A program made the translations under genes and the position numbers. A DNA stretch of 64,000 nucleotides, taken from contig NZ_JAOWKZ010000002.1 in the NCBI RefSeq assembly GCF_025751495.1, positions 744,001 to 808,000 on the forward strand. The letters are read 5' to 3'. Below are positions 20,493-39,348 of the stretch, piece after piece. This stretch comes from Albidovulum litorale. GTDB taxonomy: Bacteria > Pseudomonadota > Alphaproteobacteria > Rhodobacterales > Rhodobacteraceae. The notes below the pieces were generated by a model. That model was not told the origin of the DNA. It saw nothing but the letters and a program-made list of their open reading frames with translations, and searched no databases. The first letter of the stretch is position 1. Each line of letters opens with the position of its first letter.

Positions 20493-21383
20493 CTAACGGG
20501 TCGTGCTGAGCACCTGGCACAGTTCGTCCAGCTGATCGAGCGTTTTATAGGTTATCACGAGTTGGCCACCGTCAAGCCCCTTGTGATCGATCACGACCCT
20601 CATCTTCAGATGCGCCGAAAGATCCTGTTCCAGCACTCGGGTATCGGCATCCTTTTCTGGCCGGGCCGCACGGGCGGCGGGCTTCTTTACGGGCGCCTTT
20701 GCCAACCGCTCGGTTTCACGCACTGAGAGCCCCTTGGCGATCACCTGACGCGCAAGGGCGGTCGGGTCTTCGGTCGTAACAAGCGCGCGGGCATGTCCGG
20801 CGGTCAGTTTGCCTTCGCGAAGCCAGGTCTGAACCTCGCCAGGCAAGGTGAGAAGACGCAGAAGGTTTGCGATATGGCTTCTGCTTTTTGACAGGCCCTC
20901 AGCCAGCTTCTCCTGCGTGTGCCCGAACCGGTCCATGAGCTGGCGATAGGCCATCGCCTCCTCCACCGCGTTCAGATCGGCGCGCTGGATGTTCTCGATG
21001 ATCGCGACTTCCAGAACCTCGGTATCAGAAAAATCGCGGATCAGGACCGGAACGTCATGAAGCTGGGCGATCTGCGCAGCTCGCCAGCGGCGTTCACCGG
21101 CGACAATCTCGTAACTATTTGATTTTCTTGGATTAATTCTGACAATGAGCGGTTGAATCACCCCTTTGGCGCGGATTGAGGCTGCAAGCTCCTCCAGCGC
21201 CTCGGTGGAAAAATCACGGCGAGGCTGGTCGGGATTTGGCTCCAACTTCTCGACCGGCAGGCGGGTATCAGCCCGGCGCGGGCGGTCGGGGTCGCGGCTG
21301 GTAGGTTCATCCAGATTGACGTCGGCCATAAGCGCCGACAGGCCACGCCCGAGACCACGCCGTTCCGATTTTCTGTCGGTCAT
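20493..21383 (-). CDS. parB: Chromosome-partitioning protein ParB
   Basis: CTP-dependent clamp that loads on parS and spreads around the origin. The N-terminal ParB/Srx nucleotide domain covers about 40-125, with GERRWRAAQIA near 97 and the arginine-rich pocket. The helix-turn-helix is near 140-185 (MDRFGHTQEKLAEGLSKSRSHIANLLRLL). The C-terminal dimerisation domain ends at 296. Two exact parS sites lie 1.4 and 3.3 kb upstream in this same gene cluster. It is 10 bases downstream of parA, in one operon. Confidence 0.96.
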   Translation of the reverse strand: MTDRKSERRGLGRGLSALMADVNLDEPTSRDPDRPRRADTRLPVEKLEPNPDQPRRDFSTEALEELAASIRAKGVIQPLIVRINPRKSNSYEIVAGERRWRAAQIAQLHDVPVLIRDFSDTEVLEVAIIENIQRADLNAVEEAMAYRQLMDRFGHTQEKLAEGLSKSRSHIANLLRLLTLPGEVQTWLREGKLTAGHARALVTTEDPTALARQVIAKGLSVRETERLAKAPVKKPAARAARPEKDADTRVLEQDLSAHLKMRVVIDHKGLDGGQLVITYKTLDQLDELCQVLSTTR

Positions 21384-21393
21384 CTTTGCCCCC

Positions 21394-22200
21394 TTACGCC
21401 CGCAGTTTGTGTTGGGCCAGCATCTCCTGTGCCAGCGCGCGATAGGCCATGCTGCCTTTTGACATCGTATCGTAGGTCAGAACCGGCACCGCGTATGATG
21501 GCGCCTCAGAAAGGCGGACATTTCGGGGAACGACGGTCTGATAGACGAGTTCACCCAGGTTAGCGCGGGCATCGGCCTCCACCTGGGTCGAAAGGTTGTT
21601 GCGGCCATCATACATGGTCAGAACGACGCCCTCGATCCGAAGATCACGATTGGCCGATTGCCGCACCTGCCGGATGGTGAGCATAAGCTGCGACAAACCC
21701 TCAAGCGCGTAGAACTCTGCCTGAAGCGGCACCAGCACGGAATGTGCCGCAACCATGGCGTTGACGGTCAGCAGGCTGAGCGAAGGCGGGCAATCAATCA
21801 GGATGTAATCGAAGTCGAAGAAATCAACGGCCGGCTGCCGCAGCGCATCGTGAAGAAGGAAGCTGCGCTTTTCATTGGCGACAAGCTCGATATCCGCCGA
21901 TGAAAGATCCGTCGTGGCCGGGCAGATCCAAAGCCCCTCCACCTTTGTGGCGCGAATCACGTCCATAAGTTCCGCTTCCTCAAGCAGAAGATCATAGGTG
22001 GTGAGTTCGCGACTGGCCGGTTCAACCCCAAGACCGGTGGACGCATTGCCCTGTGGATCGAGGTCAACCAGCAGGACATTCATGTTTTCTTCGGTCAGCG
22101 CCGCAGCAAGGTTGATCGCGGTCGTGGTCTTGCCGACCCCGCCCTTCTGATTGGCGATGGCGATGATTTTCGGCCCCGGCGGACGGGTCGGATCAGACAC
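21394..22200 (-). CDS. parA: Chromosome-partitioning ATPase ParA
   Basis: Walker-type ATPase that moves ParB-parS complexes to the daughter cell side. The deviant Walker A is KGGVGKTTTAINLA near residues 18-31; the switch I/II region includes LVDLDPQGNASTGLG near 45-59 and ILIDCPPSLS near 133. At 268 residues it lacks an N-terminal DNA-binding extension, as expected for a chromosomal ParA. Its start overlaps the end of rsmG by 8 bases. Confidence 0.96.
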   Translation of the reverse strand: MSDPTRPPGPKIIAIANQKGGVGKTTTAINLAAALTEENMNVLLVDLDPQGNASTGLGVEPASRELTTYDLLLEEAELMDVIRATKVEGLWICPATTDLSSADIELVANEKRSFLLHDALRQPAVDFFDFDYILIDCPPSLSLLTVNAMVAAHSVLVPLQAEFYALEGLSQLMLTIRQVRQSANRDLRIEGVVLTMYDGRNNLSTQVEADARANLGELVYQTVVPRNVRLSEAPSYAVPVLTYDTMSKGSMAYRALAQEMLAQHKLRA

Positions 22201-22816
22201 GCGAAATTCCTCCGATTGTCAGAACGGTGGCGGCTGGATCGGTGACGCTTGCCTTGTTCTCATAGCTGAAGCGCCAGGATTCAAGGGCAACTTGCACTTC
22301 TTCACGCCATGCAGCGCCCTTCGGGAACAGCGCCACACCTCCAGAAGCCAGATGGCGGTGGGCATATTCGAGAAGTTGCGTAAGAGGCGCCAGCGCTCTT
22401 GCTGACAGGATATCGACCCCGAGAGGCTCAACATCCTCAATTCTTTTGGAAATTACCGTCGCACTGACGCCCGTTTCACGTGCGACAGTTGCCAGAAATG
22501 CCGCTTTGCGCTGATCGCTTTCAACCAGGGTTACGTGCTGGTGGGGTCTTTCCTCAGCCGCGAGAATTGCAGCGACCATTCCCGGAAAACCTCCACCGGA
22601 CCCAAGATCCGCCCAACTCGTCGCAGATTCCGGTGCGAGATCGAACACTTGAATCGAATCGCGGAAGTGGCGCTCCCATATTGACTTGATGGTAGAGCGG
22701 GCAACCAAATTGATTGCCGGGTTCCACTTGCGCAAAAGTTCTTCATACCGGACAAGTCGCGCCATTGTTTCACGTGAAACATCACGCCCCGATATGACAT
22801 GATCCTCGGTCGTCAT
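22193..22816 (-). CDS. rsmG: 16S rRNA (guanine527-N7)-methyltransferase RsmG (GidB)
   Basis: SAM-dependent methyltransferase for G527 in the 530 loop of 16S rRNA; loss gives low-level streptomycin resistance in other bacteria. The SAM-binding motif [14 protein letters not shown] is near residues 71-84, followed by [12 protein letters not shown] near 97. The RsmG C-terminal block [16 protein letters not shown] is near 133-148. It is 207 residues, full length. Near the N-terminus the residues VSRET are encoded by an exact parS site at 22766-22781. It overlaps mnmG's stop by 4 bases and parA by 8. Confidence 0.95.
22472..22487. other. Degenerate parS-like sequence in rsmG
   Basis: CGTTTCACGTGCGACA keeps 13 of 16 positions of the parS consensus, with changes at positions 1, 12 and 13. 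It lies within the rsmG coding region, where it encodes part of VARETG. It could be a weak secondary ParB site, or simply coding sequence resembling it. Confidence 0.3.
22766..22781. promoter_or_regulatory. parS: parS centromere site, exact consensus
   Basis: TGTTTCACGTGAAACA is a perfect 16-bp palindrome identical to the conserved bacterial parS. It lies inside the first codons of rsmG, encoding VSRET. It should be a ParB nucleation site about 5.5 kb from the proposed origin. Confidence 0.95.
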
Positions 22817-24687
22817 CCTGCACTACGCACCCGTTCGGCACGCCGCAGCATCGCAAGGATCAGCGTCAGGGCAGCGGGCGTCATACCGTCGACCCTGCCC
22901 GCCTGGGCCAGCGTCGCTGGACGAATCCGCGCAAGCTTCTCCCTGAGTTCATTCGACAGGCCCGGAAGCGCAAAATAGTCGAAATCCTGTGGAATTTCGT
23001 GACCTTCATCGCGCCGGACCGCTTCTACATCCGCTTGCTGGCGCTCGATGTAAGTTGCATAAGTCGCGTCGCGCTTAAGCTGCTCCTTGATATCATCCGA
23101 CAGTTCCGACAGGCCCGGATCGGCTTGTTCCAAAGATGAAAAAGACACGCCGGGAAAACTCAAAAGGGTGAAGCCCGAACGGCGGCGGCCGTCCTGACCA
23201 ACGTCAATTCCGTATGTCGCCGCTTCGCGGGGGGTTAAAGTCAACACCTCCAGCGATGCCCTGCCAGAAGTCAAAGCATTGAGCTTCTCGCCAAACTGCC
23301 GTCTGCGGTTTTCGCCCACACAGCCAATTTCGATCCCGAGCGGGGTCAGTCGCTGATCAGCGTTATCTGCCCGGAGAGACAGACGAAACTCCGCGCGGGA
23401 GGTAAACATTCGATAAGGTTCTGTCACGCCACGCGTCACAAGATCGTCGACCATCACGCCGATATAGCTCTGCGATCGCGCGAAAATCAGTGCCTCTTTG
23501 CCCTTCGCTGCGCGGGCAGCATTCAAGCCGGCAACCAGACCCTGTGCCGCAGCCTCCTCATATCCGGTGGTCCCATTGATCTGGCCCGCAAGATATAGCC
23601 CGGGCGCCGCCTTAACGGCGAGCGTGGACGTAAGCGCGCGTGGATCGACATAGTCGTATTCGATCGCGTATCCCGGCTGAAGGATTGCCACGTTCTCAAG
23701 ACCGCCAATTGAACGGACATAGGCCTCCTGAACATCTTCCGGAAGCGAGGTAGAAATCCCATTCGGATAGACCGTCGGGTCATCAAGACCTTCCGGCTCC
23801 AGAAATACCTGATGCGATGTTTTGTCGGCGAAACGAACGACCTTGTCCTCGATGGACGGGCAATACCGAGGACCGACTCCTTCAATATGGCCGCCATACA
23901 TGGCCGACCGGCCGAGATTCTCGCGAATGATATCGTGCGTACGCTCATTCGTATAGGTGATCCCGCAATCGACCTGCCGGGCGAACGGCGTTCGGTGCAG
24001 AAAGGAAAACAGCGTCGGCTCATCATCCCCGGGCTGGCGTTCAAGCCGATCCCACGCAATTGTCCGGCCGTCGAGTCGGGGCGGCGTGCCGGTTTTAAGG
24101 CGACCGAGCGGCAGGCCCAGCGCCTCGATCCGTTCAGCCAATGGCACCGACGGGCGATCACCCATGCGACCACCCGGGCGGCTTATATCTCCGATATGAA
24201 TTACTCCGCGCAGAAATGTGCCCGACGTCAGAACTACGGATTTTGCAGCTATTTCAGCACCATCGGCCAAAACAACACCGGCAACACGATCTCCTTCCGT
24301 CCGGAAGTCGACCACCTCACCTTCAACGATTGCCAGGTTAGGCTGTGCCTCGGTGATGGAAAGCATCGCCTCTCGGTACAACCGCCGGTCCGCTTGCGCG
24401 CGCGGCCCCTGGACGGCAGGCCCCTTTCTCCGATTCAGCAGGCGGAATTGGATCCCTGCCATATCCGCGACACGGCCCATAACGCCGTCCATCGCATCTA
24501 TTTCCCGCACCAGATGGCCCTTGCCGAGACCCCCAATTGCCGGGTTGCAGGACATGACGCCGATCGCGTCCCGCCGCAGCGTGACGAGCGCTGTTGCGGC
24601 GCCAAGGCGCGCAGAAGCATGTGCTGCTTCGGTTCCAGCATGCCCTCCGCCAACGACCACGACGTCAAAATGTTTCACGTGAAACAC
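22813..24687 (-). CDS. mnmG: tRNA uridine-5-carboxymethylaminomethyl modification enzyme MnmG (GidA)
   Basis: FAD enzyme that with MnmE builds the cmnm5 group on U34 of tRNAs reading purine-ending codons. N-terminal Rossmann motif [20 protein letters not shown] near residues 9-28. Family signatures are [22 protein letters not shown] near 48-69 and [17 protein letters not shown] near 371-387. The C-terminal helical MnmE-binding domain ends at 624. The start codon is GTG at 24687; its codons 2-6 (FHVKH) are encoded by an exact parS. It is followed by rsmG with an ATGA-type overlap and preceded by mnmE. Confidence 0.96.
24671..24686. promoter_or_regulatory. parS: parS centromere site at the mnmG start
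   Basis: TGTTTCACGTGAAACA, exact consensus, begins one base inside the GTG start codon of mnmG and encodes FHVKH. It lies about 3.4 kb from the proposed origin. ParB bound here would sit on the mnmG ribosome start and the 3-base gap to mnmE. Confidence 0.95.
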
Positions 24688-27411: not shown

Positions 27412-27861
27412 TCAGAATTTCAGGATGACCGAAAAAACGATGATCACCATCAGTACTGTGGGAACTTCATTCATCAGCCGATAGGTGCGCCCTGTCCGAT
27501 TGTTGGTTCCGGCGAGGAACTCCTTTCGCCGGTACCCCAGCCAGTGGTGGAACCATGTCATGCCCAACACCGCTACCGCCTTCGTCCAGGGCCAGACTTC
27601 GCTCCAGACCACGATCCCAGGGGTGAACACCAGCACCAGACCGAAAACCCAGACCCCGATCATCGCCGGATTCATGATCAGCCTCAGAAGTTTTCTCTCC
27701 ATTTCCTGAAACAGGCGATCCGTTTCACTGCCCTTCTCGACCTTTTCGACATGATACACAAAAAGACGGGGCAGATAGAAAATACCTGCCATCCAGGCGA
27801 TGACCGAGATGATGTGTAACGCCTTGGTCCAGAGATAGATTTCAGCCAGAAAGTCTGTCAT
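27412..27861 (-). CDS. hemJ: Protoporphyrinogen IX oxidase HemJ
   Basis: Membrane haem-containing enzyme that oxidises protoporphyrinogen IX to protoporphyrin IX without oxygen, taking the HemG/HemY step in most alphaproteobacteria. The 149-residue protein has four hydrophobic helices (about 10-32, 55-78, 82-100, 128-148). The conserved histidine lies in KALHIISVIAWMAGIFYLPRLFVYH near residues 13-37, and the family Lys/His follow. Full length. It is the first gene to the left of the proposed origin and points away from it. Confidence 0.9.
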   Translation of the reverse strand: MTDFLAEIYLWTKALHIISVIAWMAGIFYLPRLFVYHVEKVEKGSETDRLFQEMERKLLRLIMNPAMIGVWVFGLVLVFTPGIVVWSEVWPWTKAVAVLGMTWFHHWLGYRRKEFLAGTNNRTGRTYRLMNEVPTVLMVIIVFSVILKF

Positions 27862-28029
27862 CGTTTTTCACCTGCTTCCGTTCGTTGCCCTTCTAAAGAA
27901 AGAAAAGATAAAGAAAAGAGATGTGGTTGTTGTAAGCCCTGTGGATACTGGGGATTACAATGGTTCCCGGTGACTTTCCCACAACGGGGCTTTTCTGTGC
28001 AAAACTATGTGAAGAACTTGAGCAGTAAG

Positions 28030-28073
28030 CAAAATCCAAAAAATTATCATTATTTATCAAATATTTACTTTGA
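28030..28073. other. AT-rich unwinding element within oriC
   Basis: This 44-base tract is almost all A and T in a region that is otherwise GC-rich, with runs such as AAAAAATTATCATTATTTA. It fits a DNA unwinding element next to DnaA boxes. No GATC-rich or 13-mer repeats are obvious. Confidence 0.6.
28055..28067 (+). promoter_or_regulatory. IHF binding site in oriC
   Basis: TATCAAATATTTA matches the IHF consensus WATCAANNNNTTR at every defined position. IHF bends DNA to help DnaA open origins in alphaproteobacteria and enterics. It lies within the AT-rich tract, 23 bases from the exact DnaA box. Confidence 0.55.
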
Positions 28074-28089
28074 AACCATCTGAATCCAA

Positions 28090-28098
28090 TGTGAATAA
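28090..28098 (-). promoter_or_regulatory. DnaA box
   Basis: On the minus strand it reads TTATTCACA, an exact match to TTATNCACA, the strong DnaA-box pattern. It is the best box in the region and lies directly beside the AT-rich tract. Confidence 0.65.
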
Positions 28099-28281
28099 CT
28101 CTATCCAACTGAATGTCCGAACGGCGGTGTTCCACATGTCCAGACGACGCACATGCACAATAGGAGAATTCGACCGGGGCCTTGACAGAAGTCCCGGTTT
28201 TCCCCCAGCAACACTGTGTCGCGCACTTTGCACAAAACCAGCCACATCCTTGCTCCCCGGCTTGTCCACAGACGCATCCCC

Positions 28282-28893
28282 ATGATCCCTTCTCCAGACC
28301 GGCGTTTAATCCTTGCATCCGGGTCCGAAATCAGGGCGCAGCTTCTGCGCAATGCAGGCCTTGCACCAGAGATCATGCCCGCGCGGGTCGATGAGGAAGC
28401 GATCCGGGCGGCATTGGAAGCGGAGGATGCGAGCCCCAGCGACCTTGCCGATGCGTTGGCAGAAATGAAGGCGCGCAAGATTTCCGACAAACACCCGGAC
28501 GGGCTGGTTCTCGGCTGCGACCAGATCCTTGACTGCCGCCGTCAGGTTTTTTCGAAACCCACCGATTTGACCGATGCTCGCAACCAAATCCGCACGCTCC
28601 GCGGACAAACCCACAGGCTTTTGTCCGCCGCCGTCATATATGAGGCGGGCAAACCCCTCTGGCGTCATGTCGGAGAGGTTCGCCTGACAATGCGTGATGT
28701 ATCGGATGCCTATATCGACGATTATGTCGCGCGAAACTGGGAGAGCATCCGTCACACTGTCGGGTGCTACAAGCTGGAGGAGGAAGGGGTGCGGCTTTTT
28801 TCCCGCATCGACGGGGATTACTTCAACGTTCTCGGCCTGCCCTTGATCGAACTCTTGACCTGGCTCGGCATTCGGGGCGACATCGCCACATGA
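28282..28893 (+). CDS. maf: Maf-like nucleoside triphosphate pyrophosphatase
   Basis: Septum-formation inhibitor family; acts as a pyrophosphatase on (d)TTP/UTP or on modified nucleotides such as m7GTP. The N-terminal [19 protein letters not shown] is diagnostic, with the loop [11 protein letters not shown] near 70 and [12 protein letters not shown] near 142. At 203 residues the length is normal. Start ATG at 28282 follows the oriC region. The gene's TGA overlaps the aroE ATG, and maf-aroE-coaE-dnaQ is the standard right flank of the alphaproteobacterial origin. Confidence 0.9.
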
Positions 28894-31861: not shown

Positions 31862-33163
31862 TTAGACAAACCGGTTCCATAGATTCTCAAGCCGTTCCTG
31901 GTGCCCTGATCGGGGCTGTGGATTGATTCCTTTCGACAGGACCTGCTCGGCTATTTCCGCCAATCCACTGCCCAGCATCGCCTTGCTGTCAGTCTTGTTC
32001 CAGCCGGAATATCGCGCATCGCGGGCGCGCTCCAGCGCGCCGTCTTCCAGAAGCGCGGCCGATGCCTTCAATGCCCGCGCGCAGACATCCATAGCGCCAA
32101 CATGGGCAAGGATCAGATCCTCGGGATTGAGGCTCTGGCGCCGTAGCTTGGCGTCGAAATTGGTTCCGCCGGTGGTAAAACCGCCCGCCCGCAGGATCTC
32201 GTAATAAGCCCGCGCGATCTCGGGCACGCTGTCGGGGAACTGGTCGGTGTCCCAGCCCGATTGATAGTCGTTCCGGTTCATGTCGATCGACCCGAAAAGA
32301 CCGAGCGATGCGGCGAGCGCGATTTCATGTTCGAACGAATGCCCCGCAAGGATTGCATGGCCCTGCTCGATATTCACCTTCACCTCATTTTCCAGCCCGA
32401 ACCGCTTGAGGAACCCATACACCGTCGCGACGTCGTAATCGTATTGGTGTTTCGACGGCTCCTGTGGTTTCGGTTCGATCAGGATCGTGCCCTCGAAACC
32501 GATCTTGTGCTTGTAATCGACAACCATCTGTAAGAACCGGCCGGCCTGTTCGGCCTCGCGTTTTAGATCAGTGTTCAGAAGCGTTTCATAGCCTTCGCGC
32601 CCGCCCCAAAGAACGTAGTTCTGGCCGCCAAGTTTATGCGTCGCATCCATGCAGGATTTCACCGTCGCGGCGGCATAGGCAAAGACCTCCGGATCGGGAT
32701 TGGTGGCGGCCCCGGCCATGAAGCGGCGATGGGAAAAGAGGTTCGCGGTCCCCCAGAGCAGACGGGTGCGATGGGTTTCCATCTTCAAGGCGAAATAATC
32801 GACGATCTCTTCCAGATTGCGCAGGCTTTCCGCGAATGTCGCGCCTTCGGGGCGCACATCGGCATCGTGGAAGCAAAAAAACGGCACGCTCAGGATATCG
32901 AACATCTCGAACGCCACATCCGCCTTCAGGCGCGCAAGGTCCATACCGTCGCCGAACCAAGGCCGCTCGAATGTCTGGCCGCCGAACGGATCGCCGCCCT
33001 GCCACGCAAAGCTGTGCCAATAGGCGACGGCAAAACGCAGATGATCCTCCATCCTTTTTCCCACGACCATCTCGTCAGGGTTGTAGTGGCGGAAGGCGAA
33101 TTCGTTGCGGCTGTCGGGGCCTTCATAGCGGATTTCCGGAATGCCCTTGAAAAAGTCGGTCAT
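31862..33163 (-). CDS. xylA: Xylose isomerase
   Basis: Converts D-xylose to D-xylulose, metal dependent, cytoplasmic. Conserved blocks: [12 protein letters not shown] near 98-109 (catalytic His, Asp), [17 protein letters not shown] near 183-199, and [16 protein letters not shown] near 229-244 (metal-binding Glu, Lys, His). C-terminal [18 protein letters not shown] near 328-345 is diagnostic. At 433 residues it is a class II isomerase. Its start overlaps the xylB stop (ATGA), making it the last gene of the xylF-H-G-B-A operon. Confidence 0.96.
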
Positions 33164-34596
33164 GTCAGCCCCTTGATGGCGGTTGCGGCGGCGCGGAAGC
33201 GGGCATGGCCTTCGTCGAAAGCCCCTGTCAGCGCGGCCACCGGGTCGATGGTTTTTGCAATGCTCGGCGGTGTGGCAATCTCGGCGCCCGCTCCGGTCGT
33301 GGCCATGATGGCAAGCCGGGCCGCCCCGAAGGCACCGCCATAGTCGCCCGCGACCGGAACCGAAATCGGCGTGCCAAGCGCGGTGGCGATGGCCGACAGC
33401 CAGTAATCAGATTTCGACCCTCCGCCGACGGCCAGCAAGCGGTCGATCTTCGTTCCGGTCGCGGCCAGCGCATCACGGCAATCGCGGATCGCGAAGGTCA
33501 CACCCTCCAGTACAGCCCGGGTTGCAGCATTCCGGTCAGTATCATGTTCCAAGCCAATGAATGCGCCACGAATCGAAGCATCGTTTAGCGGCGTCCGTTC
33601 ACCACCAAGATAGGGCAGGAACCGGGCCTTTCCCGGTGGCTTAAGGCCCCCCAAGCCTTCAGTTAAGTCTGCGGAAGCCGACCCCGCGATCCGGGCAAAC
33701 CAATTCAGTGCATCTGTCGCGGCAAGTATCACGCCCATCTGATGCCACTTGCCCGGCAGGGCGTGGCAAAAGGTGTGTACTGCCGTCGCCGGGGCGGGCC
33801 GATAGCCTTCATTTGCGGCAAACAACACGCCGGACGTCCCGAGCGAGACGAAGGCCTGTCCGGCTTTTACAACGCCAACTCCAATACCCGCAGCGGCGTT
33901 GTCGCCTGCCCCGCCAGCGACTACGACACCTTTCGGTAGACCGAAACGATCCGCGAGTTCGGGGCGTAATATTCCGGATCGATCAGAGCCTTCGACCAGC
34001 CGGGGCATAGCACCACGGTCCAGCCCGGTCGCAGCAAGCAGTTCGTCTGACCAGTCACGCTTGCCGGTATCGAGCCAGCTTGTGCCAGCCGCATCCGACA
34101 TCTCCGCCACATGTTCTCCGGTCAGCCAAAGACGCAGATAGTCCTTCGGCAAGAGCACCCGCGCCACCCTGTTGAACTGTGCGGGCTCATGGCTTTTCAC
34201 CCATAGAAGCTTCGGCGCGGTGAAGCCGGGAAACACGATATTGCCGGTAAGCCGCCTGAAAACCGGGTTCGCATCCAGCGCTGCCGCCTCTTCATGCGCG
34301 CGGGTGTCGTTCCACAGGATACAGGGACGCAGCACATCATCGGCACGGTCCAACAACACCGCGCCATGCATCTGGCCGGAGAGCCCGATGCCCCTGATCG
34401 CAGCTCGGATCCTCGCGGGAATTGCGTTCAATACCGTTTCTGCTGCGACGATCCAGTCGGCGGGCGACTGTTCCGACCAACCCTCATGCGGCCGCGAGAC
34501 TGTCAGCGGCGCGGTTGCCTCGGCCACGATCTTCTGGGCGTCGTCGATGACGACGCCCTTCAAACCCGATGTGCCGAGGTCAAGGCCGAGATACAT
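33160..34596 (-). CDS. xylB: Xylulokinase
   Basis: FGGY-family kinase that phosphorylates D-xylulose to xylulose 5-phosphate. N-terminal [15 protein letters not shown] near residues 2-16 is the phosphate-1 loop, [13 protein letters not shown] near 75-87 the xylulokinase-specific block, and [12 protein letters not shown] near 390 the FGGY adenosine region. The start is the ATG at 34596, giving 478 residues. Longer open frames upstream run into xylG. ATGA overlaps both with xylG upstream and xylA downstream. Confidence 0.95.
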
Positions 34597-35354
34597 CAGG
34601 CGGTCTTTTCCGGCTGTTTGCCGAGGATGATCATGCCAAGGATATCCTCGTCCGTGACTTCGTTCACATTGACCGTGCCGACCAATTGACCGTTTTTCAT
34701 CACGCTGGCCCGGTCGCAAAGCTTCATCACATTGTGAATGTCATGTTCGATCAGGAAGATGCCAAGGCCCTGCGCCTTCAGCTCCTCGATCAGTTCGGCG
34801 ACCATCTGGGTTTCGTGCGGACCCAGGGCGGCGGTCGGTTCGTCCATGATCAGGATACGAGCGTTGAAATAGACCGCGCGGGCGATGGCAACCGACTGGC
34901 GCTGACCGCCGGAAAGTGCGGAAACCGGCACGTTGAATTTGCGGAAGTTTGGGTTGAGACGGCCCATGATCTTGCGCGTCTCCGCCTCCATCCGCACGTC
35001 ATCCACCAGCCCCCGGGAGGAAACCAGTTCGCGCCCGAGGAAAAGGTTGGAGGCCGCGTCGAGATTATCGGCCAAAGCTAGCGTCTGATAGATCGTCTCG
35101 ATATTATACCGGCGCGCATCGCGCGGATTCTCGATCACCGCCTTTTCGCCGTTGATGAAGATCTCGCCGCTATCGGCCTGATAGGCGCCCGACAGGCATT
35201 TAATCAGCGTCGACTTGCCCGCGCCATTGTGGCCGAGAAGGCCGACAACCTCACCGGGATAAAGATCGACGGTGACGTGATCGACAGCTTTGATGCCGCC
35301 AAAGGCGATGGAGATGTCGCGAAGTTCGACAAGGGGTGTTCCACGATCGGTCAT
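34596..35354 (-). CDS. xylG: Sugar ABC transporter ATP-binding protein (single-domain XylG-like)
   Basis: Energises the sugar importer with the adjacent XylH and XylF. Walker [13 protein letters not shown] near residues 39-50, signature [16 protein letters not shown] near 142-157, Walker [13 protein letters not shown] near 163-174. At 252 residues it has a single ATPase domain, whereas E. coli XylG is a tandem of about 510 residues, so a homodimer would be needed. The fructose ABC ATPase FrcA of rhizobia has the same form. Start ATG 35354 follows AGGGG. It overlaps xylB by an ATGA. Confidence 0.87.
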
Positions 35355-35365
35355 GTCTGTTCCCC

Positions 35366-36694
35366 TCACTTCGATTTGCTGCGGTAAAGTTTGTCGAGAT
35401 AGACGGCGAAGACGAGGACCGAGCCGACGACGACCTGCTGAATTGCAGCGTCAAACCCGATCAGCACCATGCCGGTCTGAAGGCTCTGCATCACCAGCGC
35501 GCCGATGATCGCGCCGTAGATCGTGCCGATCCCGCCGCCCAGAGATGTGCCGCCGATAACCGCCGAGGCGATGACGTAAAGCTCATCCAAAGTGCCCAGC
35601 GCGTTTGTTGCCGAATTGAGGCGCGCTGACGCGACGACTGAGGACAAACCGGCCAGAAATCCCATCAGCGCGAAGATCTTCACGGTCATCCAGCGGGTGT
35701 TGATCCCGGCCAGTTCTGCCGCTTCGGGGTTGCCGCCGATGGCAAAGACGTAACGGCCAAAGCGGGTGCGGGTCATCAGGAAGGTCATCACGATGCCGAC
35801 CGCGATCAGGATCAGAACCGGGATGGCGAAACCATGGCTGATGAACAGCCCGCCCTCGGGCATCTCTATCGCGTTGCGTTCGGCATATTGCTTCACGATG
35901 CCTTTCGGCCAGGGATAGGCATTGACCAGAAGCACTGCACCCAGAACGATGCCGCAGCCGATCAGACCAAGGAAGGTTTCCGCCCAGACCGGCCGCAACG
36001 GAAATTCGAACTTACGGCGCTGGGAGCGGCCATGCAGGATCAGATAGACGATACCGGCACAGGCCAGCAGGCCGACAATCCAGCTTCCGACCGCGCCCAC
36101 AGCGCCATAGGGTCCCCCGCCCAGCAGAGCAAAGGTGGAATCGACCGGCGAAATCGTCTCACCCCGGGCGACAAGGAAGGCCGCGCCGCGCCAGACCAGA
36201 AGACCGCCAAGCGTCACGATAAAGGCCGGGATGCCGCGATAGGCGATCAGCCAGCCATGAAACGCACCGACCGCCGTGCCCAGCGCCAGGCCGCAGAGGA
36301 TTGCGATGATCCAGATCAGCGGATGGCCGAGGCCGAGGAATTGCGGCAGGATCTGAACCTGCATCACACCCATGACGATAGCGCAGAAGCCAAGAACCGA
36401 GCCGACCGACAGGTCAATATGCCGGGTCACGATCACCAGAACCATCCCCGTCGCCATGATCCCGATCGAGGCGGTCTGAACCGACAGGTTCCACAGGTTC
36501 CTCGGCGTCAGAAACGCGCCGAAGCCGCTTTTCATGTAGCCGTAAAAATGAAAGCCGATCCAGATCAGCAGCAATGCACCGACCATGCCGAGCAGGCGGG
36601 TATCAAGTTCGGTCGCACGAAGGAAACGGGCAATCGGCCCTTCCTGGACGGCCTGCGTTCCGGTGTTCGGGGAAGTGGAGGTTGTTTGGGTCAT
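35366..36694 (-). CDS. xylH: Sugar ABC transporter permease (XylH-like)
   Basis: Membrane subunit of the xylose-type ABC importer (BPD_transp_2 family). The 442-residue product has about ten to eleven hydrophobic segments, with the typical [31 protein letters not shown] stretch near 67-97 and the family block [20 protein letters not shown] near 385-404. A longer hydrophilic part before residue 30 is cytosolic. It lies 146 bases downstream of xylF, the only wide gap in the operon, with a hairpin between them. Confidence 0.9.
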
Positions 36695-36800
36695 GTCCTC
36701 ATCCGGCTATGCGAAAGGATGCGGGAAAACACCCGCCATGAAACTGGCGTTCATACGCTGGGCGGAATGCACGAATTCTTCGCGGCGTGGTGCGCGCGGG

Positions 36801-36830
36801 TGAAACCCGGCACTCTGGTGCCGGGTTTCA
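36801..36830 (-). other. Stable hairpin between xylF and xylH
   Basis: TGAAACCCGGCAC (36801-36813) and GTGCCGGGTTTCA (36818-36830) are perfect 13-base complements around a 4-base TCTG loop. On the minus strand it lies 10 bases after the xylF stop. There is no clear T-run, so it likely acts as a partial terminator or as a 3' block to exonucleases that raises xylF message over the membrane genes, as is common for binding-protein genes. Confidence 0.8.
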
Positions 36831-36839
36831 GTGTCAGGA

Positions 36840-37856
36840 TCAACAGCCGGCGACGCCGTCCATCGCGCCTTCGCAGGCTTGCTCTTTCGAGATGTGGCCA
36901 GCGTCGATAGCGACGTTCAGGTTGTCCTTCGTGATCGGTGTCGGGGCGAGGAAGATTGCGTTCATTTCCACGCCCTTCTCGCCGCCGGACCACTTCACAG
37001 CACCGTCGATCGCGTCCATCGCGGTCCCGCCCGCCAGGGCCACGGCGATATCGGCCGCCGCTTTGCCCAACTGGCGTGAGTCTTTCCAGACCGAGACGGT
37101 CTGGGTGCCGCGCGCCACGCGGTTCAGCGCGGCAAGGTCACCGTCCTGCCCGCCGACCGGAATGTTCAGGCCCTGCGCCGAAAGCGCGGCAATCACGCCA
37201 CCGGCCATGCCGTCGTTTTCGGACAGAACCGCATCAACCTCGTTATTGGCCGCCGTCAGGATCTGCTCCATGTTCTTCTGGGCATTGTCCGGCTTCCAGC
37301 CATCGGTGAAGCTTTCGCCGACGATCTTGATCGTCCCGGCCTCAACATCGGCGCCGATCACTTCCATCATGCCTTCCAGCAGGAAGAGCGCATTCGGGTC
37401 GCCCTTGTCACCCTTGATGATGGCGTAGTTGCCTTCGGGCTGCGCGGCTTTCACGGTCTCGGCGATGATCCGGCCAACGCCCTTGTTGTCGAAGGTCAGG
37501 TAGAAGGCGCGGTCATCTTCGATGAGGCGGTCATAACCCAATACTGGGATGCCTTCGGCAGCGGCCTTGTCGATGGCGGGGCCGATCGCGTCCTTGTCGA
37601 CCGCCAGGATTACCAGCGTCTCGGCACCCTGGGCGATCAGCGCCTCGATATCGGTCAGCTGCTTGGCGGCGGAGTTCTGTGCGTCGGATGAGATATAGGT
37701 GGCACCGGCAGCTTCCAAAGCGGCCTTCATCGCCGCTTCGTCGGTCTTCCAGCGCTCTTCCTGAAAGTTGGACCAGCTCACGCCCACGGTCTGGGCCCAG
37801 GCGGATGTGGCGAAACCGGCCGTCAGGGCGACGGCCGCGAGAATGGCTTTATGCAT
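36840..37856 (-). CDS. xylF: D-xylose-binding periplasmic protein
   Basis: Sugar-binding receptor of the importer, exported by a signal peptide (MHKAILAAVALTAGFATSAWAQ, cleaved after about 22). Family features are the start of the mature protein TVGVSWSNFQEERWKTDEAA and the ligand-pocket region IPVLGYDRLI near 108-117, plus VLSENDGMAGGVIAAL near 218-233. It is 338 residues, usual for XylF. The start at ATG 37856 follows GGAGGAAC. First gene of the operon; divergent from the ROK regulator. Confidence 0.92.
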   Translation of the reverse strand: MHKAILAAVALTAGFATSAWAQTVGVSWSNFQEERWKTDEAAMKAALEAAGATYISSDAQNSAAKQLTDIEALIAQGAETLVILAVDKDAIGPAIDKAAAEGIPVLGYDRLIEDDRAFYLTFDNKGVGRIIAETVKAAQPEGNYAIIKGDKGDPNALFLLEGMMEVIGADVEAGTIKIVGESFTDGWKPDNAQKNMEQILTAANNEVDAVLSENDGMAGGVIAALSAQGLNIPVGGQDGDLAALNRVARGTQTVSVWKDSRQLGKAAADIAVALAGGTAMDAIDGAVKWSGGEKGVEMNAIFLAPTPITKDNLNVAIDAGHISKEQACEGAMDGVAGC

Positions 37857-38064
37857 ATGTTCCTCCCGTTGACGGGCCAAGACGCCCGGATCGGCGGATT
37901 CGCCGAACTTTCTCTAGGCTGCCGATAATAAATTCACTTGTCAAATTAAAAACGCTAGATCAAACTGCGGTACGGAGGAAAATTTGCTCAACACGTGCCC
38001 GTAGCGGCGTCAGACGGCCAAATATGGCGAGTATTGAGTAGATTTTAGTTAAGCGAGCTAATTA
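37857..38064. promoter_or_regulatory. Divergent promoter region for xylF operon and ROK regulator
   Basis: The 208-base gap is AT-richer than its surroundings. On the minus strand TTGACA (37939-37944 complement) is a plausible -35 element for xylF; no good -10 is visible. Close to the regulator start, TTAG and CTAA (about 38045-38061) form short inverted arms around nine bases and could be the repressor operator. Both assignments are tentative. Confidence 0.4.
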
Positions 38065-39348
38065 ATGGCGGAACAAGACACGCGAAATGGTCAGCGCATG
38101 GGCCCGGACACGCATGGCTGCGGTCCGCTGATTCCGGCCCTGTCTGAAACTGCCCGTCCGCTTCGCCAGCAGATCTTTGAGCGGGTCCGGGCGGCTGGCT
38201 TCATTCCGCGCGTTCAGGTCGCCAAGGAACTGGCAATCAGCCCGGCGACAGTGACCACGCTGACCTCGGAACTGATCGAGATGGGACTGGTCGAGGAAAT
38301 AGCCACACCCCGCGACGGGGAATCCGGCCGGGGCCGTCCGGCCGTGGCGCTGGGCGTGCGGCCTGACGCGCATCTGGTTGCCGGTATCAAGCTGTCGGAC
38401 CGCGAAAACACCGCCGTAATCGTCGATTTTGCAGGAAATCTCGTTGCCGATCTCGCGATGCCGCATCAGCCGGGCGCGATGGAGTTGACGGATCTCGTAT
38501 CCCTGACCGCAGATCTTGTTGATCAGGTCTGCGACAAGGCCGGCATCAACAAGATTACGCTCAGCGCCATCGGTCTTGGCGTTCCCGGCTTCGTCGATGC
38601 GGCGGCAGGCATCGTGCATTGGTCGCCGATCCTCGCCGGACGGCATGTCCCGCTCGCGCAGGCCCTTTCCGCCCGCCTCGGCCTGCCGGTCCATATCGAC
38701 AACGATGCCAATCTGGTGACTCTGGCCGAACTGTGGTTCGGCGCCGGACGACGCCTTTCAGATTTCGCCGTCGTCACCATCGAACACGGCGTCGGCATGG
38801 GATTTGTCCTGAACCACCGTATCTACCGCGGCGCGCAGGGATTGGGGATGGAACTGGGCCACACCAAGGTGCAACTCGATGGCGCGCTCTGCCGTTGCGG
38901 CCAGCGTGGATGTCTTGAGGCCTATGTCGCCGATTACGCATTGGCCCGCGAAGCGACGACCGCGCTCAACTGGACGAACCGCGAAAACCGGTCGCTCAAT
39001 ATCCTGCTTGAAAGCCTTTACGACCATGCGAAGGCGGGCAATCAGGCGGCGCGATCAATCTTTCACCGCGCCGGGCGATTCTTGGCGCTGGGCCTTGCAA
39101 ATGTCGTGAACCTGTTCGATCCGGAGCTCATCATCCTGTCGGGTGAGCGGATGCGATACGATTATCTTTACGCAAACGAGACGCTCGCCGAAATCAAGGC
39201 GCTGGCCCTGAATACCGGTCGTCCGGCGCCGAAGATCGAGATCCACGCCTGGGGTGACTTGCTCTGGGCACATGGCGCGGCGGCACTCGCTTTGTCCGCT
39301 GTGACCGAAGGATTGCTGGCCCCGGCACGTGAGATTGCCGCTCAATGA
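38065..39348 (+). CDS. ROK-family transcriptional regulator of xylose genes (XylR-like)
   Basis: DNA-binding repressor that probably senses xylose. A winged helix-turn-helix near residues 35-80 (VRAAGFIPRVQVAKELAISPATVTTLTSELIEMGLVEE) precedes a ROK sugar-kinase-like domain. The latter has the zinc motif CRCGQRGCLEAY near 277 and GVPGFVDAAAG near 173. At 427 residues the length matches ROK-type XylR. Divergent position to xylF is the main clue to its target. Its TGA overlaps the ATG of the CRTAC1 gene. Confidence 0.87.
   Translation: MAEQDTRNGQRMGPDTHGCGPLIPALSETARPLRQQIFERVRAAGFIPRVQVAKELAISPATVTTLTSELIEMGLVEEIATPRDGESGRGRPAVALGVRPDAHLVAGIKLSDRENTAVIVDFAGNLVADLAMPHQPGAMELTDLVSLTADLVDQVCDKAGINKITLSAIGLGVPGFVDAAAGIVHWSPILAGRHVPLAQALSARLGLPVHIDNDANLVTLAELWFGAGRRLSDFAVVTIEHGVGMGFVLNHRIYRGAQGLGMELGHTKVQLDGALCRCGQRGCLEAYVADYALAREATTALNWTNRENRSLNILLESLYDHAKAGNQAARSIFHRAGRFLALGLANVVNLFDPELIILSGERMRYDYLYANETLAEIKALALNTGRPAPKIEIHAWGDLLWAHGAAALALSAVTEGLLAPAREIAAQ

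Follow-up and report, generated by a model that had tools for sequence, protein, structure and literature searches.

Here, we propose that the 420-base gap between hemJ and maf (positions 27862–28281) is the chromosomal origin of replication (oriC), a prediction from sequence to which we assign a probability of roughly 0.92. The window, that is, the whole stretch of 64,000 nucleotides analysed, corresponds to bases 744001–808000 of contig C7 (1,001,165 bases) in a genome of 4.05 Mb and 13 contigs. Its MnmG is at most 74% identical, over the best segment, to that of named Rhodobacteraceae such as Pseudodonghicola and Roseovarius, and the genome was placed in the Roseobacter group on the basis of these identities. 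An earlier note on this DNA had called the gap a probable chromosomal origin, and this reading is now supported by the clustering of DnaA boxes, by synteny, by parS sites, by the persistence of the site where hemJ is missing and by the GC skew of two of three complete relatives.

The genes on the minus strand run in the order parB-parA-rsmG-mnmG-mnmE-rho-hemJ, followed by the gap and then by maf-aroE-coaE-dnaQ on the plus strand. Genes indeed point away from the gap on both sides, as previously claimed, with hemJ (27412–27861, minus strand; TIGR00701) on the left and a maf-like gene (28282–28893, plus strand; TIGR00172; start taken at the ATG at 28282) on the right. NCBIfam models scored above their curated cut-offs for rho, hemJ, maf, aroE, coaE, dnaQ, mnmE, mnmG, rsmG and a ParB-family protein. 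The gene at 21394–22200 is ParA-like and stays below the cut-offs of all models among the best 25 of 28 families; together with parB it covers 20493–22200 on the minus strand. An antisense open reading frame of 141 amino acids (27893–28318) spans the gap, but stop codons break it in L055 and L056, the two nearest relatives, and it was therefore not counted as a gene. Rfam and tRNA scans of the 64-kb window gave no matches. In 21 aligned same-genus sequences, the orthologous gap measures 411–433 bases.

Windows of 420 bases were scored for DnaA boxes (TTATCCACA, with zero to two mismatches allowed). On the 1.0-Mb contig, the best one reached a score of 9.0 versus 4.5 for the runner-up; it starts at 27937 and extends 75 bases into maf. 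The gap itself scored 8.5, with a mean of 0.88 for shuffled sequences and none of 1000 dinucleotide shuffles scoring as high, so that it holds a box cluster beyond chance, as in a DnaA-dependent oriC. The orthologous gap again ranked top in the complete same-genus genome G013 (9.0 versus 4.5 over the 440 kb scored). For the wider family, 54 gaps were used, comprising 21 from the same genus, 25 others with hemJ and 8 rho-maf gaps in which hemJ was not found; the 46 hemJ gaps measure 300–460 bases, longer ones having been omitted. The box core TCCACA occurs 138 times across these gaps versus 13.0 expected, while GANTC showed no enrichment (71 versus 96.1).

No perfect copy of TTATCCACA is present in the gap, and the two perfect copies of the contig lie elsewhere. 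The box at 28090–28098 (TTATTCACA, minus strand), formerly described as exact, is exact to TTATNCACA but has one mismatch to TTATCCACA. The near boxes noted at 27940 and 28262 proved to be one-mismatch sites: box 1 (GTATCCACA, 27940–27948, minus strand) and TTGTCCACA (28262–28270, plus strand), which adjoins the maf start and was recovered by box scan, alignment and conservation. Likewise, the weaker boxes were recovered as two-mismatch sites that are also conserved in the genus, namely TTTCCCACA (27975–27983, plus strand), TTTTGCACA (27996–28004, minus strand) and TGTTCCACA (28128–28136, plus strand, with a conserved core). The scan added a two-mismatch box at 28008 and box 2 (TAATCCCCA, 27949–27957, minus strand, two mismatches), which abuts box 1.

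Two exact copies of TGTTTCACGTGAAACA, which we take to be the parS motif, lie at 22766–22781 and 24671–24686, 3–5 kb left of the gap and both within 5.1 kb of it. They are the contig's only sites with up to two mismatches to this motif, and G013 has two exact parS sites in the same relation to its gap. Closeness to parAB was among the criteria for the Ori-Finder predictions of origins in 101 Rhodobacteraceae (PMC6699656). The main text of that paper contains neither hemJ nor maf, and the portion available to us does not describe the inner structure of the origins.

The GC-skew check suggested in the earlier note gave a mixed picture: the skew turns near the orthologous site in G013 and G033, but not in G024. 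In G013 (4.17 Mb, 20 samples), the skew is positive from 0 to 2.0 Mb and then negative save for +0.006 at 3.2 Mb, with sign changes at 2.0–2.2 Mb and near the contig start. A slope break was fitted at 125 kb (105–146 kb), hemJ lies at 93 kb, and the lowest point of the 440 kb examined is found at 4.03 Mb, about 235 kb off the gap. In G033 (4.33 Mb), the turn is bracketed by samples at 1.08 Mb and 1.30 Mb, and hemJ lies at 1.18 Mb. The sampled turn of G024, at 360–540 kb, is about 0.4–0.6 Mb from hemJ (at 3.48 of 3.56 Mb), a mismatch that an inversion could explain. On contig C7, a single-break fit of the cumulative skew gave 590 kb (562–618 kb) and the minimum is at 810 kb, with the gap at 772 kb; the skew is too flat between 590 and 1000 kb, and it therefore brackets the gap and does not fix the place by itself. 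The skew computation also met 5000 N in the contig at C7:845001–850000, outside the window.

It is very improbable that replication starts at dnaA instead, with the gap merely a reservoir for DnaA binding. Origins at dnaA are common in many bacteria, the gene is on the same contig (C7:688624, 83 kb left of the gap), and the contig's own skew cannot separate 689 from 772 kb, but the best box window at dnaA scores only 3.5 with one near box. Although dnaA stands at the very start of the record in four of six relatives searched, this is a common numbering custom, and in G013 the slope break at 105–146 kb contrasts with dnaA at 0.3 kb. For G033, with its dnaA at 1.40 Mb, the 1.30-Mb sample is already slightly positive (+0.012), which indicates that the skew turns before dnaA.

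The place of the box cluster is conserved among relatives. Out of 80 named MnmG loci, 52 had rho, maf and enough length, and the top box window fell inside the rho-maf interval in 47 of these; the exceptions are L116, L120, L126, L154 and L159. In most close loci, the interval takes up about 0.5–1 kb out of some 22 kb, and in other orders 2–4 kb. All 27 close loci that hold maf (within L084–L111) have their top window in this interval. A few of the named loci (L086, L098 and L090) carry labels other than Rhodobacteraceae, and L090 has a weak box cluster only (3.0).

That the gap is a divergent hemJ/maf promoter region under the control of DnaA and IHF, and no origin, is scarcely credible in view of these loci. 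The top window stays between rho and maf in all eight close loci that lack hemJ there, hence its conservation does not reflect control of hemJ, and the same is true of L093, whose gap lies between hemE and COG1806. Promoters facing both ways would fit the divergent genes and the genus-conserved CTTGACAGA (28181–28189, plus strand; from the genus alignment), a possible −35 element towards maf, and DnaA boxes do regulate genes elsewhere; yet the box excess in the 54 gaps would seem to exceed the need of two promoters.

The earlier note had also likened this locus to that of Caulobacter, near whose origin parAB and gidAB lie. The resemblance extends to the maf side and to the surroundings of rho and par, but the flanks of the gap are hemJ and maf and not hemE and COG1806. 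Three Caulobacterales loci (L114, L127 and L149) have the same wider order rho-hemJ-gap-maf-aroE as here. According to the part of the source available, the origin of Caulobacter crescentus and Rickettsia sits between hemE and COG1806, and it resembles the present gap in its length of about 400 bases, an AT-rich region of 40 bases, DnaA boxes and one IHF site (PMC1914354). An IHF site, as in an origin of the Caulobacter type, is predicted here at 28055–28067. Exact CtrA sites (TTAA-N7-TTAA) are absent from the window's gap and occur in 4 of the 54 family gaps versus 0.9 expected.

Intermediate gene orders were observed as well: L093, labelled Rhodobacteraceae, has hemJ-hemE-gap-COG1806-maf, and L080 has hemJ-gap-COG1806-maf, with COG1806 alone retained. 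In our genome, hemE is at C7:266 kb, 505 kb from the gap, and no match was found to PF03618, which we take to be COG1806. The simplest story would be a stepwise loss around a fixed origin, first of hemE, next of COG1806 and, in certain lineages, also of hemJ. The hemE/COG1806 rule for alphaproteobacterial origins does not hold in this genome, whereas the site is still marked by rho, maf and parS.

As an origin, the gap is an ordinary and useful anchor; its left element matters more. Opening of the DNA is more likely at the left edge (27893–27957), which combines a purine run, phased triplets, a GC spacer and two adjacent DnaA boxes. On the plus strand, it starts with a purine-rich AT tract (27893–27920), probably the left part of the unwinding site, which is conserved in the genus and seen in many other family gaps. 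The trio-like array of phased triplets ATG TGG TTG TTG TAA, defined by genus counts, follows at 27921–27935, then the 4-base spacer GCCC at 27936–27939, placed by the box spacing after TAG, and boxes 1 and 2. Conservation was scored on the genus alignment of 21 sequences, with L062, a near copy of L058, omitted. The strongest footprints were, in order, 27938–27946 (box 1), 27921–27929 (triplets) and 28156–28164, and only these three are above the 95% limit obtained by permuting columns (1.15). Box 2 (27950–27958, rank four) and the purine run (27911–27919) came next, followed in order by 27995, 28128, 28262, 28199, 27975 and the IHF core at 28053. The genus-conserved sequence at 28156–28164 reads CACAATAGG.

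The 44-base AT-rich tract reported previously is real, with 38 of 44 A/T at 28031–28074, and only about 1e-5 of the contig's 44-mers are equally AT-rich; by composition alone, it qualifies as the AT-rich unwinding region of a DnaA-dependent oriC. The exact IHF consensus within it is also present as claimed (TATCAAATATTTA, 28055–28067, plus strand; a site predicted by motif scan), and 14 of the 54 family gaps contain an exact IHF site in this orientation, versus 0.5 expected from shuffles. The tract probably looks like an IHF region and not like the unwinding site, for which the conserved element at 27893–27957 is the better candidate. We consider it rather unlikely that the origin opens at this tract and that the left element serves as a hemJ/rho promoter or in another role. 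The tract has the highest A/T content of any 44-mer in the gap (85% versus 73% for the left element), but in the genus only its IHF core stands out, while the box pair and the triplets occupy the first two ranks. On inspection, loose −35/−10 look-alikes can be seen in the left element when it is read leftwards; a promoter, however, would leave the spacing of 4, 13 or 14 bases to the box in 20 of 20 strict cases (see below) unexplained, and the strict element persists without hemJ in L088. We therefore regard an opening at the left edge, as opposed to elsewhere in the gap, as fairly probable.

On its hem side, the gap of many family members proceeds from a purine/AT run through phased ATG/TTG triplets to TAG (TAA here) and a box. 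A strict form of this element, with an exact TAG, was found in 20 of the 54 gaps on the expected strand and never on the opposite one, against an expectation of 0.15; none of 27 gaps from other orders contains it. The window's own gap, having TAA, does not match it, and two copies occur in 300 kb of its contig away from the gap. In the 20 strict gaps, the best box within 30 bases after TAG is at offset 4 (12 gaps), 13 (6) or 14 (2). Since 13 equals one 9-base box plus 4, this spacing fits the layout of the basal unwinding system (BUS). A hidden Markov model trained on the genus element was run on 36 testable loci (two more were excluded), in which the gap makes up a mean of 10.5% of the locus. 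Its best match fell within the rho-maf gap in 23 of them and outside in three (L078, L093 and L099), and ten gave no match; most of the 23 scores are weak, with E-values above 0.01 except for L075 and L125.

Automatic anchoring on box pairs outside the genus misplaced many rows and was discarded, so the family claim rests on the strict element, the spacing and the model results. A tandem-box pattern searched over 61 genomes adjoins hemJ in 11 of 22 same-genus genomes but also marks a recurrent unrelated site, and was likewise rejected. In Rhizobiaceae origins (L112, L117 and L133), TTTCTATTTCTTAG-AGTC precedes a weak box in the hemE-COG1806 gap, forming a T/C-rich counterpart of the left element.

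The available parts of the BUS literature describe a layout of tandem boxes, a spacer of about 4 bases and trios (PMC8287927). The left element resembles the BUS of Bacillus subtilis in its adjacent tandem boxes, a spacer of about that length, phased triplets and G as the first captured base (PMC8287927, PMC10721633, PMC6669920). In the window, the box pair lies beside a GC spacer of 4 bases; in the 21 genus sequences, G occupies the first captured (third) base in 86 of 105 instances of trios 1–5; and offsets of 13–14 correspond to one degenerate box plus spacer. In contrast to the BUS, the central base of triplets 2–5 is mostly T (66 of 84; A in 10 of 84). The published NAN pattern, as coded here (at least three central-A triplets at most 16 bases from a box), is absent from both strands of the window. 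Near the hem side, it was found in 11 of the 21 genus gaps (0.7 expected), in seven of them through frame-shifted GAT-type repeats, whereas the pattern with central T was found in 15 (0.6 expected). Outside the genus, central A occurs in 7 of 33 gaps (1.3 expected) and central T in 16 (1.6 expected). A shifted central-A frame (GAT GAT GAT) may apply at sites of ATG repeats; it is ruled out where TTG repeats occur, as in this window. Titles and abstract openings among the matches listed for DnaA-trio literature with alphaproteobacterial names do not describe the array.

In B. subtilis, according to the accessible text, the amino group of the central A of a trio touches DnaA Asn187, T at this position reduces origin activity, and the DnaA residues reading the single strand are not universally conserved (PMC10721633). 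Deviant trios without a middle adenine were suspected in the other report, as far as its available part goes (PMC8287927). In an alignment of this genome's DnaA with B. subtilis chain 8btg, position 187 (Asn in B. subtilis) is Tyr and position 202 is Lys; Glu183, Lys222, Glu223 and Glu228 are retained. Residue 187 was read in 22 alphaproteobacterial sequences, 15 by alignment and 7 by eye from ungapped output. It is aromatic in 17 (Tyr 13, Trp 3, Phe 1), with Ala in two and Ser, Val and Leu in one each; the Val and Leu sequences (L264 and L265) are divergent and perhaps not genuine DnaA. As Asn is absent from all 22, beyond the family, the residue change is not tied to central T alone and the relation is a correlation only. 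A one-to-one link between residue 187 and the central base is unsupported, as the Tyr-187 Pelagibacteraceae also look mixed by inspection. Tentatively, and with the odds somewhat against it, we hypothesize that the opening site of Rhodobacteraceae origins is a deviant DnaA-trio array, 3′-GTW-5′ with central T and not the canonical 3′-GAT-5′, and that alphaproteobacterial DnaA, having lost Asn187, underwent a corresponding shift in single-strand specificity. In many members of the family, the array keeps the box pair, spacer and phase but has another central base, and the matching DnaA residue is changed as well; this offers a direct test of how DnaA chooses its strand. Separately, contig C1 of G033 carries 14 scattered DnaA-domain look-alikes in frames of 269 or 286 amino acids, which we guess are perhaps IstB-type transposition ATPases.

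The oriC of E. coli runs from the unwinding site to a box in the TGTGGATAA orientation, IHF and more boxes. The gap shows the same order, including this orientation, and its distance of 115 bases from box 1 to the IHF site is longer than in E. coli. From box clustering and contig rank, conservation, the spacing rule, parS and synteny, we infer a course of initiation in which DnaA and IHF binding and the opening place are all predicted. DnaA would bind the adjacent boxes at 27940–27957, aided by the scattered boxes to the right, and a bend by IHF at 28055–28067 would assist it there. A DnaA oligomer would then extend leftwards from the box pair across the 4-base GC spacer, take the top strand of the triplets and purine tract (27893–27935) and pull it out, whereby the duplex opens. 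Helicases would load at the opened left element and forks depart both ways, while ParB on the two parS sites 3–5 kb to the left would separate the new origins.

Apart from the origin region, the window contains a xylose utilisation block at 31862–37880, with genes for xylose isomerase, xylulokinase, a sugar ABC transporter and an XylF-like binding protein; a ROK-type regulator is encoded beside it at 38065.
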